Source of the DNA: Natronobacterium texcoconense
GTDB taxonomy: Archaea; Halobacteriota; Halobacteria; Halobacteriales; Natrialbaceae
Assembly (NCBI RefSeq): GCF_900104065.1
Contig: NZ_FNLC01000003.1
Location: forward strand, 186,001 to 250,000
Reading direction: 5' to 3'
Length of the DNA stretch: 64,000 nt
Shown here: positions 34,604 to 54,556 of the stretch, piece by piece
How positions within the stretch are numbered: position 1 is the stretch's first letter
How the letters are laid out: each line of letters opens with the position of its first letter
Notes under the pieces: model-generated
What the model saw: only the letters and a program-made list of their open reading frames with translations
Told to the model about the DNA's origin: nothing
Database searches by the model: none
Program-made: the position numbers and the translations under genes

Positions 34604-35242
34604 TCGATCGAGCGCGCTGTCGACCGCACGCGCCTCTCCTCGCCGAAGCAACTCCGACGCCGTCGAGACCGCACACTCGAGTTCGTCGGCGACGGCCTCG
34701 ATACCGTTCCGGCGTGGCACCTCGTAGTAGCCGAGTTCGCGGGCGACCTCGAGTGCCTTTTCCTGCCGTTCCGACAGGCCAGCGCCGTCGACTGTGAGGT
34801 CGTTTCGGACCTGCCGAACGTCGAGTGCGACGCCTTCGGGAGTCTCCTCGAGCACTGCTCCGAGGTCGCTGGGGTGACCGACCAGCGTCATTCGCATTGT
34901 CCGATCCGATCGGACGTCGATCGGCGGGACGACCACGACCGTTTCCTGTGCGAGCGCGTTCAGAAGCGACGTCCCCTCCGATCCGAGTTCGCGACGGAGA
35001 TAGAGGAAGAACCCGTCGTCAGTCGGCGTCACGTCGTACTCCCTGACGGCGTCGCGGCCCTCGAGAAAGGACTCGTACGGGTCGGGTTCGCCCTCGACGA
35101 ACGAGGTGATCGTCTCGACGCCCTCGACCGACTGCCCGCCGAGGATTAGCTCTCGCTCGAGGTCGGGGTCCGTACAGAGCAGGTCGTGGATCGGCGACAG
35201 CGCCGACGGATCGTACCGCAGTTCGATCCGGATCGATTTCAT
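34598..35242 (-). CDS. bacterio-opsin activator (Bat)-type HTH_10 regulator
   Basis: A 214-residue regulator with an N-terminal ligand or regulatory region (MKSIRIELRYDPSALSPIHD...) and a C-terminal HTH_10 domain: LSERQEKALEVARELGYYEVPR followed by IEAVADELECAVSTASELLRRGE, the recognition helix. This is the standard architecture of haloarchaeal Bat/HTH_10 proteins, which respond to redox, light or metabolic cues as transcription factors. The longer frame to 35617 has no domain support. Neighbours on both sides are unrelated, so its targets are unknown. A paralogue of the same length and layout lies at 53513. Confidence 0.88.
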   Translation of the reverse strand: MKSIRIELRYDPSALSPIHDLLCTDPDLERELILGGQSVEGVETITSFVEGEPDPYESFLEGRDAVREYDVTPTDDGFFLYLRRELGSEGTSLLNALAQETVVVVPPIDVRSDRTMRMTLVGHPSDLGAVLEETPEGVALDVRQVRNDLTVDGAGLSERQEKALEVARELGYYEVPRRNGIEAVADELECAVSTASELLRRGEARAVDSALDRL

Positions 35243-40064: not shown

Positions 40065-42473
40065 TCACTCGAACGCATAGACGGTGTCGTTGTCGACGCC
40101 GAACAGTCGATCCTCGGCCGCCACCAGTTCGGAGACGATCGAGCCGTTCGCTGGTAGCTCGCTCGAGGTCGAGACGTCACCGGTCTCGGGTTCCAGACCG
40201 GTGAGCGTTCCATCTCGGGTTACTACCCAGACGAGACCGTCGGCGACGACGGGGGCCGTGTTGATGGAACTCTCGAACTCGGTACGCCACTCGATCTCCC
40301 CCGATTCGCCGTCGATCGAGACGATCGTCGACTCCGTTGCACCGCTCCCCACACCGCCAGTAAAGACAGTCCCGTCGGCGACCGCCGTCGCCCACATGGA
40401 TTCTCCGTCGTCGACGTCGTGGACCGTCGCACTCCACTCACGATCCCCGCTGTGGGCGTCGTACGCGCGAACCGTTCCGTCGTTGACCGCACTGACGACT
40501 AGCTCGTCCAGTATCGACGGGCTGGTCGCCGGGAACTGCGACGGCGTATTCGTCCAGGAGCGTCGGCCGTCGGTCGTCAGCGCGGAAATGCTGCCGTGGG
40601 AAACGAACAGCGTCCCGTTCGAGACGGCCGGTGCGGACGCTGCCTGCGATCCGACGGAGCCGATCGACTGGTGGTCGCCGGAGTCGGGATCGAACTCGTA
40701 CACGTCGCCGTCACGGTCGACACCGTAGACTGCGTCGCCCGCCGCGACGAACGGGGCATTGAACTCGCCGGCAGTGTTCGCCTCCCAGACTGTTTCGCCG
40801 GTCTCGATTCGAATCCCGAAGACCATCCCCTCCGACGTCCCGACGATCGCCAGATCGTCCACGATAACCGGCGCTGTCGCCGGGAACGATCGATCCGGGC
40901 CGACCGACTGCCGCCATCGAACGTCACCCGTCGCGCCGGTGATCCCGACCACACCACCCCGTTCGCTCGTGACGACGACCCCGTCCGCCACGATCGGTGG
41001 ACGCGGATCGTTTGCCGGGACAGCCCAGGTTCGCTCGAGGTCGTCCCGTGGCGGCGTCGCATCGGGGTTTTGCCGTGAGTTGCTGCGGTCGTAGCCGGTC
41101 GTCGGCCACCGGCCCACGTCTTCGGCCGGTGTCCGATCACCGAACGAGAAAGCGGTAATTCCTCGATCGTGGCCGACGAAGACGCCCGACGGCGTGACTG
41201 CTGGTTCGGCGGTCGTCCGTCCACGATACCACGTTTCCCCGAGAACGTCGCCATCCGAAGCATCCACCACGTAGAGCGTCTCGTCCAGCCCGAGCAGACA
41301 GATGCGGTCCGCTACGACGACGGGCGGCGCGAGAACGGTCGTTGGAAGCGATGCCTCCCAGACGACGTCGCCGTCCGCGAGAGAGAACGCCCGTACGAGT
41401 GCCTCGTCGGACTCCGAGACGTGCGAGGACCGGTCGTTGTCGACGAAGACCACGATATCGTCGGTGACTGCAGGCTTGGGTCCGTCGACAGCTTCGTCTT
41501 CGGTCTGCCAGAGCACGTCGCCGTTCGTGGCGTCGACGACGAATCCGGTGTACTCGTGGACGTAGACGACGTAGCCGTCGACGAGTACGGGGCTGTCCCG
41601 ATCGTTGACCACCGACGGGAGTTCCGTCTCCCACTCGAGTTCACCGGTCGCTGCGTCGATCCCGACGAGTCGATCGCCGGGCACGGCGACGACCAGGTCT
41701 CCATCGGTCGCGACGCTGCCGGTGTAGCCGCCGGCGTCGACCGCCCAGAACCCCTCGCCCGTCGTCGCATCGAGCGCGTAGACGGTGTTACTCCCGGAGA
41801 CGTAGACGACGCCGTTCGCGACTGCTGGAGAACCGCGGACGTCCCCGTCGATCCTCGTCGACCACGTCGTCTCGCCGGTGTCTGCCTCGAGAGCGAGCAC
41901 CGCATCGGGTTCGTCACCGGGACGGTTCGCACAGACGTAGAGCGTGTCGTCGACCACGGTTCCCGGGGCGAACGCGCTCGGTACCGTTCCGGGCTCTTCG
42001 AAGACGCGCAGATCGGTTACCCACTCCATTTCGCCAGTGTCGGCCTCGAGTGCGACGATACCGCCGCTAAACGGTGCGTCCTCGAGGTCGAACTCCTCGC
42101 GATAGGCGAAGACGCGGCCGTCCGCGGCGATCGCACCGAACGACTCGGGATCGATCGCCTCGTGGCGGTGGTCGACCGTCCAGTCGTGAACCGTCGTCTC
42201 GATCGACGACTCGCTATCGGCGATCCAGCCGGAGTTCCCGAGATCACCGCCGAACGTGGGCCACGCATCCGACGCCTCGTCCCGGAGATCTACCCCTTCA
42301 GTCGAGTCGATCGCATCCGCTTGCTCGTCGTCCGTCGTGCTCGCGAACTCCTCGGTACCGGCCCCACCCAGGTCGGAGAACTCCTCGAGTTCGTCCGAAC
42401 AACCAGCGACCCCTACGGCCCCTCCGGCAGCGAGTAGCTGCAGGTACCGTCGCCGCTCGATGCGTCGAGTCAT
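40065..42473 (-). CDS. PQQ-type beta-propeller lipoprotein (large)
   Basis: An 802-residue protein with a Tat signal and lipobox (RRRYLQLLAAGGAVGVAGC, Cys25), an acidic linker and many WD40-like/PQQ repeats, each with the pattern of a Gly-rich strand then W or F at the turn: GIVALEADTGEMEWVTDL, LALEADTGETTWSTRI, VYALDATTGEGFWAVDAGG, VGITGATGDVRWRQ, YAVD-like units, and so on to VIVSIDGESGEIEWRTE. The number of repeats suggests two propellers in tandem. The protein is probably anchored on the outer face of the membrane. The usual PQQ ligands are not evident, so this may be a structural or substrate-binding propeller, not a quinoprotein dehydrogenase. Confidence 0.85.
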   Translation of the reverse strand: MTRRIERRRYLQLLAAGGAVGVAGCSDELEEFSDLGGAGTEEFASTTDDEQADAIDSTEGVDLRDEASDAWPTFGGDLGNSGWIADSESSIETTVHDWTVDHRHEAIDPESFGAIAADGRVFAYREEFDLEDAPFSGGIVALEADTGEMEWVTDLRVFEEPGTVPSAFAPGTVVDDTLYVCANRPGDEPDAVLALEADTGETTWSTRIDGDVRGSPAVANGVVYVSGSNTVYALDATTGEGFWAVDAGGYTGSVATDGDLVVAVPGDRLVGIDAATGELEWETELPSVVNDRDSPVLVDGYVVYVHEYTGFVVDATNGDVLWQTEDEAVDGPKPAVTDDIVVFVDNDRSSHVSESDEALVRAFSLADGDVVWEASLPTTVLAPPVVVADRICLLGLDETLYVVDASDGDVLGETWYRGRTTAEPAVTPSGVFVGHDRGITAFSFGDRTPAEDVGRWPTTGYDRSNSRQNPDATPPRDDLERTWAVPANDPRPPIVADGVVVTSERGGVVGITGATGDVRWRQSVGPDRSFPATAPVIVDDLAIVGTSEGMVFGIRIETGETVWEANTAGEFNAPFVAAGDAVYGVDRDGDVYEFDPDSGDHQSIGSVGSQAASAPAVSNGTLFVSHGSISALTTDGRRSWTNTPSQFPATSPSILDELVVSAVNDGTVRAYDAHSGDREWSATVHDVDDGESMWATAVADGTVFTGGVGSGATESTIVSIDGESGEIEWRTEFESSINTAPVVADGLVWVVTRDGTLTGLEPETGDVSTSSELPANGSIVSELVAAEDRLFGVDNDTVYAFE

Positions 42474-47794: not shown

Positions 47795-49177
47795 ATGACT
47801 GGTCCCTGGTCTGACGGTACTGGCGACGGCTGGCCACGACGTACCGTCCTGGCGACTGCCCTCCTCGGTACTGGCGGCTGTCTGGCCGAACCAGAATCGA
47901 ACGACACCGACGAGATCGAAGAGTCGGACGGAGACTCGAGCGATGGTACCGCCGAGTCGAACGAAGCCGCGACCGAGTACGACGATTCCTGGCCGGCGTT
48001 CGGCTTCGACGCAACGAACGTGGGGCACAGTCCGGATGCAGTCGGGCCGACGACGGGGGAAGTCGCGTGGGTCGTCGATGGCGGAACACCCACGATGAAC
48101 TGTTCACCGATCGTCGCCGACGGAACGGTGTATACGGCCGCGACGGGCGGCGACGGAGGGTTGTTCGCGATCGATCCTGTATCGGGGTCTGTCCACTGGG
48201 AGTTTGAAACCGACGGCTACGCGAGCAGCGCATCCGGATTCGACGGCGAACGGTGTTACGTCGGGACGTGGGACCACCGGTTTCACGCCATCGACGCCCA
48301 CACCGGAGAAGAAGTGTGGACGATCGAACCGGGCCACCGCTTTGGCGACTCGTCGCCAGCCGTCGTCGACGGTGTCGTCTACGTCGGTAGCTACGGCGAC
48401 GCGCCGATGGTCGTCTCGGGACCCGAAGACGAAGAACGGTTCGAGACACCCGCGATCCTCGCACTCGAGGCCGAGACGGGCGAGGAGCGGTGGCGATACG
48501 ACGCGTTCGACGAACGCGACAGTATCAGTTCGTCGCCTGCGGTCGCTGGCGGAACAGTCTCCGTCGTAACACCGACGGGCGAATTGCTCGCCCTCGACGC
48601 AGCCAACGGAACCGAACGCTGGCGGCGCGACCTGGACGCCCACAGCGACTCGTCGCCGGCGGTCACCGGCGGCGTCGTCTACTGTCCAGCGGGACGGACA
48701 GTCGACGAATCCGACGTTCGCGGCGGTCTGTGGGCGCTCGAGGCGGAGACGGGTGAACCGCTGTGGTCGACGGAAATCGACGACGTGAGTCTGCGAACGT
48801 CACCGGCGATCGCCGACGGCGTCGTCTACCTGGCAGGGTCGACGAGAGAAGTGTGCCCCGGGCTCGCGGAGGACTGCGAACCGTCGTCGTCGGGAACGCT
48901 CTACGCGATCGACGCAGACACAGGCGAGACACAGTGGACCGCCGATCTCGAGCCGGATACCCGTTCGTCACCGGCGGTCGCGGACGGAACGGTCTACGTC
49001 GGTAACGGGACGACGGTATCGGCGATAGACGTCGACGGGGAGACGAACTTCCAGGTCGATCTCGGCACCGCCGAAGAAGCCGACGACGTGCGGTATCTCG
49101 ACTCGAGTCCGGCCGTTGCCGACGGCCGTGCGTACGTGGGGGCGAACGACGGCCAGTTGTACGCGATCGGGAAGTAG
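47795..49177 (+). CDS. PQQ-type beta-propeller lipoprotein (small)
   Basis: A 460-residue protein with a twin-arginine lipoprotein signal (PRRTVLATALLGTGGC, Cys29), an acidic linker and a propeller of about seven or eight PQQ-like repeats. The repeats include TVYTAATGGDGGLFAIDPVS, GEEVWTIEPGHRFGDSSPAV, GEERWRYDAF, GTERWRRDLDAHSDSSPAVT, ETGEPLWSTEI and GETQWTADLEPDTRSSPAVA. It probably faces the outside and binds a ligand or partner protein. The larger propeller at 40065 is a relative of the same class; neither has an obvious catalytic residue set. Confidence 0.87.
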   Translation: MTGPWSDGTGDGWPRRTVLATALLGTGGCLAEPESNDTDEIEESDGDSSDGTAESNEAATEYDDSWPAFGFDATNVGHSPDAVGPTTGEVAWVVDGGTPTMNCSPIVADGTVYTAATGGDGGLFAIDPVSGSVHWEFETDGYASSASGFDGERCYVGTWDHRFHAIDAHTGEEVWTIEPGHRFGDSSPAVVDGVVYVGSYGDAPMVVSGPEDEERFETPAILALEAETGEERWRYDAFDERDSISSSPAVAGGTVSVVTPTGELLALDAANGTERWRRDLDAHSDSSPAVTGGVVYCPAGRTVDESDVRGGLWALEAETGEPLWSTEIDDVSLRTSPAIADGVVYLAGSTREVCPGLAEDCEPSSSGTLYAIDADTGETQWTADLEPDTRSSPAVADGTVYVGNGTTVSAIDVDGETNFQVDLGTAEEADDVRYLDSSPAVADGRAYVGANDGQLYAIGK

Positions 49178-51988: not shown

Positions 51989-53431
51989 TCACCGCTTCCG
52001 GACTCGCATCTCGACAGGGCCGGGATCGAGCGACACCTTCGGCGTCGGATCGATCGATTCCGTCACTCGCTCGAAGTCGACGCGCCGAACCAGCATCGCC
52101 AGCGAGAGTTTGAGTTCGGTCATCGCGAACCGCATCCCGATGCAGTGACGCGAGCCACCGCCGAAGGGGAAGTAGGCGTACTCGGGTCGGTCGTCGGGGT
52201 CGGCAACCACGGAGCGGCCGTTCTCGTCGTCCGCCAGCCATCGATCAGGCCGGAACGCGTCGGGCTCGGACCACCAGCGCCCGTCGCGGTGGATGCCGTA
52301 CATGTTCAGCTGGACCGTCGTTTCCGGTCCGATCCGGTAGCCGGCGAGTGCGGTCTCCTCGTGGGGCTCGCGCTGCAGGAACGGCAGCGGTGGGTAGAGA
52401 CGCATCGCTTCTCGGCCGATGGCCTCGGTGATCGTCAGGTCGGGCAAGTCCGTAAACGTCGGATCGCGGTCGCCACAGACGGCGTCGACCTCTCGCTCGA
52501 GTCGCGCCCGGAAGTCGTCGGCGTCGTCACCGGTCAGCAGCCAGCAGGCGTAGGTCAGCGCGGTCGCCGTCGTCTCGTGGCCGGCAAGCAGGAACAGCTG
52601 TAGCTGGTCGGTGATCTCTTCGGCCGTCGGCTGCGAGCCGTCGGGGTACTCGCCGGTCGCGAGCAAGGAGAGCAAATCGTTGCCCTCCGCATCGGATCCC
52701 CGGCGCTCCGCTACCAGGTCCTCGACGAGGGATTCTATGTCCGCCGTCGCACGTCGGTACTCGCGTTCGGCGCGGCTCGGCAGCCACGTCGGGAGCACGG
52801 CACGGGTGCCGAAGAACTCGCTGTCGCTGTACGCTCCCATGGCGTGGACCCAGCGCCGTACGCGGTCGGCGCGTTCGGTCTCGAACTCTAAGTCGAACAG
52901 GGTCCGGGTCAGTGCCCGCAGCGTCAGCGCCGACATCGACTCCCGGACGTCGATGACTTCGCCGTCCGACCAGTTATCGACCAGCCGTCCAGTTTCCTCG
53001 ACCATGTCGTCGGCGTAGGACTCGATTCGGGCCGGCGTAAAGGCGTTCTGGAGCAGCATGCGCTGCTGTCGCCAGCGCTCGCCCTCCGCGAAGAACAGCC
53101 CCTCGACGTCGAGAAGGTCGCTGAACTCGTGCTCGAACTCGCCGCGCCAGAACTCGCCGTCGCGGGCGACGGTTACCTCCTCGACGAGTCCGGGATCAGA
53201 AACGACAACGAACTCGCGGCCGAATGCCTCGTACCGGGCAACGTCGCCGTACTCGCGCATCGACGCGAGGAACTCGAGCGGGTCGCGTGCGAACGCGAGG
53301 GTGCTGTCGACCAGCGGGAGCCCCCGTGGGCCGGGCGGCGGCGTTCCGACCGCCGCTCGCGTCGGTCCCGTGTCGCTCTCCGCGTCGGTCGTCGGTTCTC
53401 GGTCGTCCCCCGTCGTGCGTATCTCGCTCAT
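51989..53431 (-). CDS. cytochrome P450
   Basis: A 480-residue P450 monooxygenase with no membrane anchor, hence soluble. Diagnostic motifs are the I-helix AGHETTATAL (283-292, with acid-alcohol pair E286-T287/T288), the K-helix ExxR E341-R344 in EAMR, and the heme loop FPFGGGSRHCIGMRFA with thiolate Cys430. The acidic sequence and the Gly-Gly-Gly heme loop fit a bacterial-type class I enzyme needing a ferredoxin partner. The start at 53431 (MSEIRTTG) is preferred over an upstream one at 53557. The divergent HTH_10 regulator starts about 80 bases away and a ferredoxin gene lies beyond it. The substrate is unknown. Confidence 0.94.
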   Translation of the reverse strand: MSEIRTTGDDREPTTDAESDTGPTRAAVGTPPPGPRGLPLVDSTLAFARDPLEFLASMREYGDVARYEAFGREFVVVSDPGLVEEVTVARDGEFWRGEFEHEFSDLLDVEGLFFAEGERWRQQRMLLQNAFTPARIESYADDMVEETGRLVDNWSDGEVIDVRESMSALTLRALTRTLFDLEFETERADRVRRWVHAMGAYSDSEFFGTRAVLPTWLPSRAEREYRRATADIESLVEDLVAERRGSDAEGNDLLSLLATGEYPDGSQPTAEEITDQLQLFLLAGHETTATALTYACWLLTGDDADDFRARLEREVDAVCGDRDPTFTDLPDLTITEAIGREAMRLYPPLPFLQREPHEETALAGYRIGPETTVQLNMYGIHRDGRWWSEPDAFRPDRWLADDENGRSVVADPDDRPEYAYFPFGGGSRHCIGMRFAMTELKLSLAMLVRRVDFERVTESIDPTPKVSLDPGPVEMRVRKR

Positions 53432-53512
53432 ACGCGTTCGTTCGGCGCGAACGACTGTCGGTGCTCTCCCGAAGCACTGAACTTCTTTAAGTATCGACGG
53501 CGAACGGCCGGT

Positions 53513-54166
53513 ATGCAGTCGGCAGACCTCACCCTCCGGCTTCCGCCGTCGATGCAACTGCCCGCGCCCGAGGATCCGCTCGAGTCGTTTCAGCGCGAGG
53601 AGGTGCTCTCCTGGGAGGTCGATCCCGACGCCGAAACCGTCCGCTTTCTCTCGCTAATCGTCGGCGATCCCGGCGCGCTCGGAAATCTAGCCGAGGATCT
53701 CGAGTCAGTCCACCGGTACGACGTCACGCCGGTCGACGAGGACACGTTCTACGGCTACGTCGAGATGGACCTGCGGGCTGCCGACGCCACGCTACTAGGA
53801 ACGTTCGACGTCCCCGGGCTGGTAGTCGTCCCGCCGATGGTCTACACCGGCCGGGAGAACGTCCACGTTACCGTCCTCGGGGAGCCAGAGGCCATGGCGG
53901 GTCTGCTCGAGGAGGCTCCCGAGGACGTGGAAATCGACGTACAGCGCGTGAGCGAACACCAGCGCCGCTCAGAGACGCTCGCGGGTCGGCTCACGGCCAG
54001 ACAGTTCGAGGCGCTCGAGGTCGCCCGCGAGGTGGGTTACTACGAGGTGCCCAGAAGCGGCGAACTGGCGACGGTCGCGGGGAAACTCGAGTGTTCCGAG
54101 AGCGCGGCGTCGACGCTGTTGCGGTCGGCAGAGAAGAAACTGGTCGATGCGGCGTTACGCCGATAG
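53513..54166 (+). CDS. Bat-type HTH_10 regulator next to a P450
   Basis: A 217-residue protein with the same architecture as the regulator at 34598. It has an N-terminal sensory half (MQSADLTLRLPPSMQLPAPE, then DVTPVDEDTFYGYVEMDL) and a C-terminal HTH_10: LTARQFEALEVAREVGYYEVPR and SGELATVAGKLECSESAAST with the recognition helix. It is divergent from the P450 gene over an 80-base intergenic region, and the ferredoxin gene at 54171 converges with its stop within a few bases. It is a natural candidate regulator of the P450. TATA-like TTCTTTAAG lies about 30 bases upstream of the ATG. Confidence 0.88.
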   Translation: MQSADLTLRLPPSMQLPAPEDPLESFQREEVLSWEVDPDAETVRFLSLIVGDPGALGNLAEDLESVHRYDVTPVDEDTFYGYVEMDLRAADATLLGTFDVPGLVVVPPMVYTGRENVHVTVLGEPEAMAGLLEEAPEDVEIDVQRVSEHQRRSETLAGRLTARQFEALEVAREVGYYEVPRSGELATVAGKLECSESAASTLLRSAEKKLVDAALRR

Positions 54167-54170
54167 AGAA

Positions 54171-54416
54171 TCAGGGGATCAACTGCTCGCCGTCGTCGTC
54201 GTAGATTTTGATCGCGTCGACGGGACAGGTGCGAGCGGCGAACTTCGCGTCGAGTTCCGCGTCCTCGGGCACCTCGCGAACGAAGACGCCGTCCTCGACC
54301 TCTTCGCTGTCCTCGAGGATGGCCTTTCCGCGTGACTCGTCTTCCACGAAGGCGTCCCACTCGGCGACACACTGGAACATCCCGATGCAGGTGTCCTCGT
54401 CGAATTCGACTTTCAT
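54171..54416 (-). CDS. [3Fe-4S]-type ferredoxin
   Basis: An 81-residue ferredoxin with only three cluster cysteines: C10 and C16 in CIGMFQC, and C64 in RTCPVDA. The position that holds the fourth ligand in [4Fe-4S] proteins (residue 13) is Met, which indicates a [3Fe-4S] cluster. This type (CX5C...CP) often donates electrons to bacterial P450s. Here the P450 gene lies about 740 bases away, past the HTH_10 regulator; no ferredoxin reductase is in this window. The protein is acidic, as expected. It converges with the regulator's stop. Confidence 0.9.
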   Translation of the reverse strand: MKVEFDEDTCIGMFQCVAEWDAFVEDESRGKAILEDSEEVEDGVFVREVPEDAELDAKFAARTCPVDAIKIYDDDGEQLIP

Positions 54417-54556
54417 GCCTCAGCGTTCGTCCGAGGGGTGTAAAGCACTGACGGGACCGATTCGGACGGTCGGCCCGCAACCGACGCCCGTGTGGTACGT
54501 TAGTCGGAACCACATGTCATCATGATTTTATTATCGGGCGTCGCGTCCGTCGTCCC

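Follow-up and report, generated by a model that had tools for sequence, protein, structure and literature searches.

A P450, an HTH_10 regulator and a ferredoxin gene at one locus

The locus lies in a 64,000-nucleotide stretch of the Natronobacterium texcoconense genome (the window) and comprises three open reading frames, which we found at the coordinates and with the domains that an earlier note on this DNA had claimed: a cytochrome P450 of 480 residues (positions 51989 to 53431, minus strand), an HVO_0513_N/HTH_10 transcription regulator of 217 residues (53513 to 54166, plus strand), and a three-cysteine, single-cluster ferredoxin of 81 residues (54171 to 54416, minus strand). The P450 and regulator genes are divergent, with 81 bp between their start codons, and the regulator and ferredoxin genes are convergent, with only 4 bp between their stop codons. 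Given this convergence, the three genes amount to three transcription units, and the divergent and convergent arrangements together leave no simple transcript common to P450 and ferredoxin. The genes surrounding the trio in the window are housekeeping genes, uninformative about the P450 substrate, and the flavoprotein profile Pyr_redox_2 (PF07992), the one reductase family searched, has no match anywhere in the window. An open reading frame nearby, at 47795 to 49177, is repeat-rich and PQQ/beta-propeller-like by eye, with several proteins about 30% identical to it close by in the window, as at 40224 to 42368.

The P450 matches positions 1 to 458 of the 462 in PF00067 (E = 1.2e-75) and is therefore a full-length member of the family, with all signature motifs intact (AGHETT in the I-helix, EAMRL at ExxR, FRPDRW, and the heme loop FGGGSRHCIG). 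Its nearest PDB sequences are putative P450s, a bifunctional P450, carotenoid hydroxylases, and CYP51, all of them too distant to decide the substrate.

The regulator matches both HVO_0513_N (E = 4.1e-17, 62.5 bits against a curated cut-off of 29.8) and HTH_10 (E = 8.1e-14, 51.6 bits against 23.1), which places it among the HVO_0513-type HTH_10 regulators. Its previous description as Bat-type holds for the C-terminal HTH_10 domain but not otherwise: these two domains are the only ones that Pfam finds in the 217 residues, and the GAF and PAS domains that stand before HTH_10 in Bat were not found. The predicted structure (mean pLDDT 85.5) has an alpha/beta repeat in the N-terminal domain and a C-terminal helix-turn-helix. 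A fold search of this model against the PDB returned no significant full-length match, and an assignment of the ligand domain on this basis was abandoned, the matches being partial only (TM about 0.2). A second HVO_0513_N/HTH_10 regulator, 38% identical to the partner of the P450, is encoded at 34604 to 35242 on the minus strand of the window, with no P450 adjacent.

The P450 and regulator genes are paired across genomes

A P450 of any kind is present in 96 of the 111 good-quality Natrialbaceae genomes and missing from the other 15; P450s are not rare in this family. The P450/regulator pair and the ferredoxin occur together in 37 of 125 genomes, in some with one gene between, and this adjacency could bring a functional advantage. 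Where the three are together, the pair forms an insert between malate dehydrogenase/HAD and the ferredoxin; in many genomes it is missing, and in others it lies elsewhere. It has also decayed in place: the P450 is frameshifted in G073, and in G089 and G047 the ferredoxin has only the tail of the P450 next to it. Such decay points to an insertion that is old and has been lost repeatedly, as would be expected of a dispensable function. Translation identified G073 as the only truly frameshifted case among the split P450 matches; those in G101 and G046, for which a frameshift had also been considered, are intact open reading frames with insertions. Conservation in relatives had been set beforehand as a test of the arrangement; it holds for the pair but not for the trio.

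Every orthologue of the regulator, down to about 48% identity, adjoins a P450 or a P450 remnant. More broadly, of 60 sampled paralogous P450s (59 from the profile-match list, with a bias to strong PF00067 matches, plus the source genome's other P450), 26 lie no more than 500 bp from a divergent gene for an HVO_0513-type HTH_10 regulator. With 54 HTH_10 matches in the approximately 4 Mb of the source genome, the chance expectation is roughly 1% per neighbor. Nine genes of that genome encode HVO_0513_N, and each of its only two P450s has one of these as a neighbor. Over 87 divergent pairs, distances in the P450 tree track those in the regulator tree (r = 0.90, against a permutation maximum of 0.12 in 2000 shuffles), a correlation that vertical inheritance of a linked pair can produce by itself. 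More telling is that the linkage has endured between P450s only about 40% identical. The pairing recurs across P450 subfamilies that are only about 38 to 45% identical, and one subclade, 60% identical to the P450 of the window (L044 to L046 and L123 to L126), has no adjacent HTH_10 partner. As further observations on these neighborhoods, an 8-kb stretch around the second P450 of the source genome (G000:C2:1092008-1099996) holds three HTH_10 genes, and genes for acyl-CoA carboxylase subunits (carboxyltransferase and biotin carboxylase) are seen repeatedly close to P450/HTH_10 pairs of several genera (L047, L048, L144, and L149).

A conserved element in the shared promoter region is a putative operator

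The 81 bp between the two start codons (53432 to 53512) form a divergent promoter region common to P450 and regulator. Column conservation, spacing, and a genome-wide site search single out a 13-bp putative operator within it, CGAAGCACTGAAC (53470 to 53482, plus strand). Across 40 relatives its columns carry a mean of 1.72 bits, against 0.65 in the left flank and 0.34 in the right. The distance to the P450 start is exactly 38 bp in 32 of the 40, a conserved CAT at this distance backing the choice of start codon, and the spacing to the regulator start is fixed as well. Directly 3' of the element is the TATA-like box of the regulator, TTTAAG (consensus TTTATA; 53486 to 53491, plus strand), about 27 bp 5' of the ATG, from which we infer that the regulator transcript is probably leaderless. 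On the other side, the position at which the TATA box of a leaderless P450 transcript would be expected is occupied by a conserved, GC-rich, non-TATA element, TCGNCGTT in plus-strand letters (53458 to 53465, minus strand), with a T at −12 and another at −5, each conserved in 39 of 40 sequences; we regard it as a putative weak, activator-dependent core promoter.

A search with the 22-mer CGAAGCACTGAACTTCTTTATA at up to three mismatches gave 38 matches in 37 of the 125 genomes, compared to one for a reversed-pattern control. Each of the 38 falls in the interval that separates a P450, or what remains of one, from its regulator (30 placed by tblastn, the other 8 by coordinates). The site is unique in the source genome, and at this threshold no other promoter of the 125 genomes contains it, the ferredoxin promoter included. 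P450 and regulator are, by these results, a conserved and co-inherited divergent pair with a conserved, private putative operator between them. An inverted repeat, GTGCT-N7-AGCAC, was considered as the operator and rejected because relatives preserve CGAAGCACTGAAC but differ in the left arm of the repeat (GTACT, GTGAT, GTTCG).

The second P450/regulator subfamily, to which the other P450 of the source genome belongs, has a different motif, CGAGCATGCTAGGTG, followed by a TATA box at the corresponding place, and 20 of the 21 matches to this motif, including that in the source genome, are beside P450 genes. The motifs of the paralogous P450s presumably resemble the upstream activator sequence of Bat in containing CTAG, which we treat as a lead only.

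The ferredoxin is encoded by a core gene

The ferredoxin (Fer4_15, E = 2.5e-22; CIGMFQC...CP) does have a methionine in place of a cysteine, as the earlier note had it, but not in place of the fourth: Met13 takes the position of the second cysteine in C-x2-C-x2-C...CP. C10, M13, C16, and C64-P65 are invariant in 72 of 72 distinct 81-residue orthologues. By motif alone, the protein falls into the [3Fe-4S] single-cluster class (C-x2-X-x2-C...CP, where X is not cysteine), a motif that leaves the cluster type unsettled, as both [3Fe-4S] and [4Fe-4S] clusters have been reported for such ferredoxins (PMC6237146).

The gene is near-universal, being present in 124 of 125 Natrialbaceae genomes (111 of the 111 of good quality), in 191 of 195 genomes sampled from the class, and in all 15 good-quality Natrialbaceae genomes that have no P450. 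This agrees with a survey of archaeal P450s and ferredoxins (Ngcobo et al., 2023) in which one 3Fe-4S subtype is found at 41 copies in 40 species, or about one per genome (PMC9962201). Its genomic backbone is largely constant over 20 neighborhoods (GNAT, LOG-like protein, malate dehydrogenase, (HAD), ferredoxin, (methyltransferase), PiT transporter, USP, Hel308), and the ferredoxin stays put in it where the P450/regulator pair is elsewhere (G050, G100, and G108) or absent.

Directly 5' of its start, the ferredoxin gene has a promoter element of its own, CCCGTCAGTGCTTTACA (54439 to 54455, minus strand), which takes the same forms, CCG[CT][TC]A..G[AC]TTTA, with and without the pair. At orthologous positions this element is strongly conserved across the Natrialbaceae. 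A 9-bp match between operator and ferredoxin promoter, AAGCACTGA, was dismissed as a chance overlap, since elsewhere the ferredoxin element retains a form distinctive to it. On the grounds of distribution, synteny, and promoter sequence, we reject the ferredoxin as a partner dedicated to the P450: it occurs without any P450 and, by its orientation and promoter sequence, has neither transcription nor operator in common with it. Judged from these comparisons of sequence, it is an ordinary core haloarchaeal gene, independent of the P450/regulator module.

Proposed mechanism and alternatives

Pairing, co-inheritance, conservation and privacy of the motif, and independence of the ferredoxin can all be read directly from the genomes. 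From the sequence we take the locus to be, probably, a switch made of two genes and placed by insertion next to the gene of a housekeeping ferredoxin; in it, one regulator would control one P450 through a private operator. The HVO_0513_N/HTH_10 regulator would most likely bind the 13-bp element between the divergent promoters, controlling its own TATA-containing promoter and, by analogy with Bat and DmsR, activating the TATA-less core promoter of the P450. Its N-terminal domain may sense a small molecule or a redox state. The P450 would hydroxylate its substrate, perhaps an isoprenoid, and would draw electrons from the general ferredoxin pool of the cell, possibly including the adjacent core ferredoxin.

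The three genes had been taken for a self-contained monooxygenase unit, and the half of this idea that concerns the P450 and its regulator survives, in that the two are conserved, co-inherited, divergent, and joined by a conserved promoter region in common; the membership of the ferredoxin does not. A class I unit whose dedicated [3Fe-4S] ferredoxin acts, and is regulated, together with the P450 and the regulator would fit the 37 genomes with a contiguous or nearly contiguous trio, the C-x2-X-x2-C...CP motif seen in P450-linked ferredoxins (PMC6208970, PMC6237146), and the closest solved folds, which include Mtb Fdx, a CYP194A4-linked ferredoxin, and CYP143-FdxE. We nevertheless hold it to be very improbable, because the ferredoxin is kept in P450-less genomes and in a housekeeping backbone, faces its neighbor convergently, and has its own promoter element and no operator. 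Adjacency itself is no evidence of partnership, since in Mycobacterium tuberculosis the choice of redox partner did not go by gene proximity (PMC6208970). For the same reason the physiological donor need not adjoin the P450, and a general carrier that is not dedicated, namely this core ferredoxin with its P450-partner type of motif and fold and its constant presence in the cell, may be the electron donor, at what we judge from its sequence to be somewhat less than an even chance. Weighing against it is the abundant haloarchaeal [2Fe-2S] ferredoxin Fdx, which is fed by 2-oxoacid oxidoreductases and could be the source of electrons instead (PMC8305020).

The direction of regulation could also be the reverse. 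As a repressor of both genes, itself included, relieved by the P450 substrate in the manner of xenobiotic induction, the regulator would make sense of an element that abuts its own TATA box, where bound protein could block TBP/TFB. Yet the TATA-less P450 side suits an activator better, and activation is the mode of action of Bat and DmsR, the characterized relatives with HTH_10 (PMC1447603), so that repression seems to us rather unlikely. Less probable again is that the pair is kept by linkage only. The 13-bp element could then be an unusual basal element belonging to a strong promoter of the regulator gene rather than the binding site of the regulator itself. It does stand on the BRE/TATA side of that promoter, and the motif relatives are of common ancestry. 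This explanation sits poorly with the absence of the element from all other promoters of the 125 genomes, with the fixed spacing to the P450 start, and with the recurrence of the pairing over distant subfamilies, each with its own motif.

Relation to known systems

A regulator divergent from the enzyme gene that it serves is an ordinary kind of system; the family-wide P450/HTH_10 pattern and its operators appear to be undescribed. No description of the pairing turned up in the freely accessible literature searched, and a text search of the archaeal survey for HTH, helix-turn-helix, and transcription found no report of a divergent regulator or operator (PMC9962201). The same survey places redox partners typically outside P450 operons (PMC9962201). 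One close parallel is the Bat/bop regulon of Halobacterium, where Bat likewise has a C-terminal HTH_10 domain and activates through an upstream activator sequence near its target promoters (PMC1447603, PMC1502140). Bat, however, carries GAF and PAS/PAC domains as sensors and acts on several targets, whereas the regulator described here has a short HVO_0513_N domain and a single local target predicted by motif. DmsR of Halobacterium is also an activator with a Bat-like C-terminal helix-turn-helix, but it controls the dms respiration operon (PMC1447603), in which no P450 is involved. Among P450s, the haloarchaeal CYP174A1 of Halobacterium salinarum is comparable, its deletion having changed bacterioruberin and purple membrane; the sections of that report consulted describe no regulator for it (PMC6212597). 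The ferredoxin resembles Fdx1-11 of M. marinum, Mtb Fdx, and FdxE, which are P450-linked (CXX?XXC(X)nCP), in cysteine pattern and fold (PMC6237146, PMC9868604). It differs from these bacterial proteins in being a universal core gene with an invariant methionine at the "?" position that is not confined to P450 neighborhoods.

Most archaeal P450s are listed as orphans without known function (PMC9962201), and a deletion study of one halophile P450 left its substrate open (PMC6212597). A regulator that serves a single P450, and for which an operator is predicted, offers a way into this problem, the inducer of the regulator probably being the P450 substrate or a precursor. Haloarchaeal HTH_10 proteins number in the dozens and few of their sites are known, so two subfamily-specific candidate operators make a binding code testable. 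The results also correct a likely misreading: the position of the ferredoxin gene next to the P450 is no reason to take its product for a redox partner that belongs to this enzyme. More speculatively, haloarchaeal P450s may have expanded as modules of one P450 and one private HVO_0513/HTH_10 regulator, with regulator and operator co-diverging and the subfamily in the window acting on isoprenoids, a proposal that we consider possible rather than probable. If true, each P450 in a cell would have its own, non-overlapping switch, and a ready-made set of operator codes would be at hand for the large, mostly uncharacterized HTH_10 family.

Clues to the substrate

An isoprenoid is our tentative best guess for the substrate of the P450 in the window, because a sister clade is found in a UbiA/methyltransferase cluster and PEMT-like genes lie near more distant relatives. 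In four genomes, the sister P450 (60% identical and without the regulator) is located between two UbiA prenyltransferases, together with an ICMT/PEMT-like methyltransferase and a phosphoribosyltransferase; these loci are an apparent, uncharacterized cluster for a prenyl compound. The cluster is seen at L044, L045, L046, L123:1115-5995, L124:1115-5895, L125, and L126, where the phosphoribosyltransferase is adenine-phosphoribosyltransferase-like and the HTH_10 partner is absent. The PEMT-like methyltransferase genes near the more distant P450 relatives are those at L145:1542-2093, L146:1499-2098, L150:1918-2469, and L060:6591-7127.
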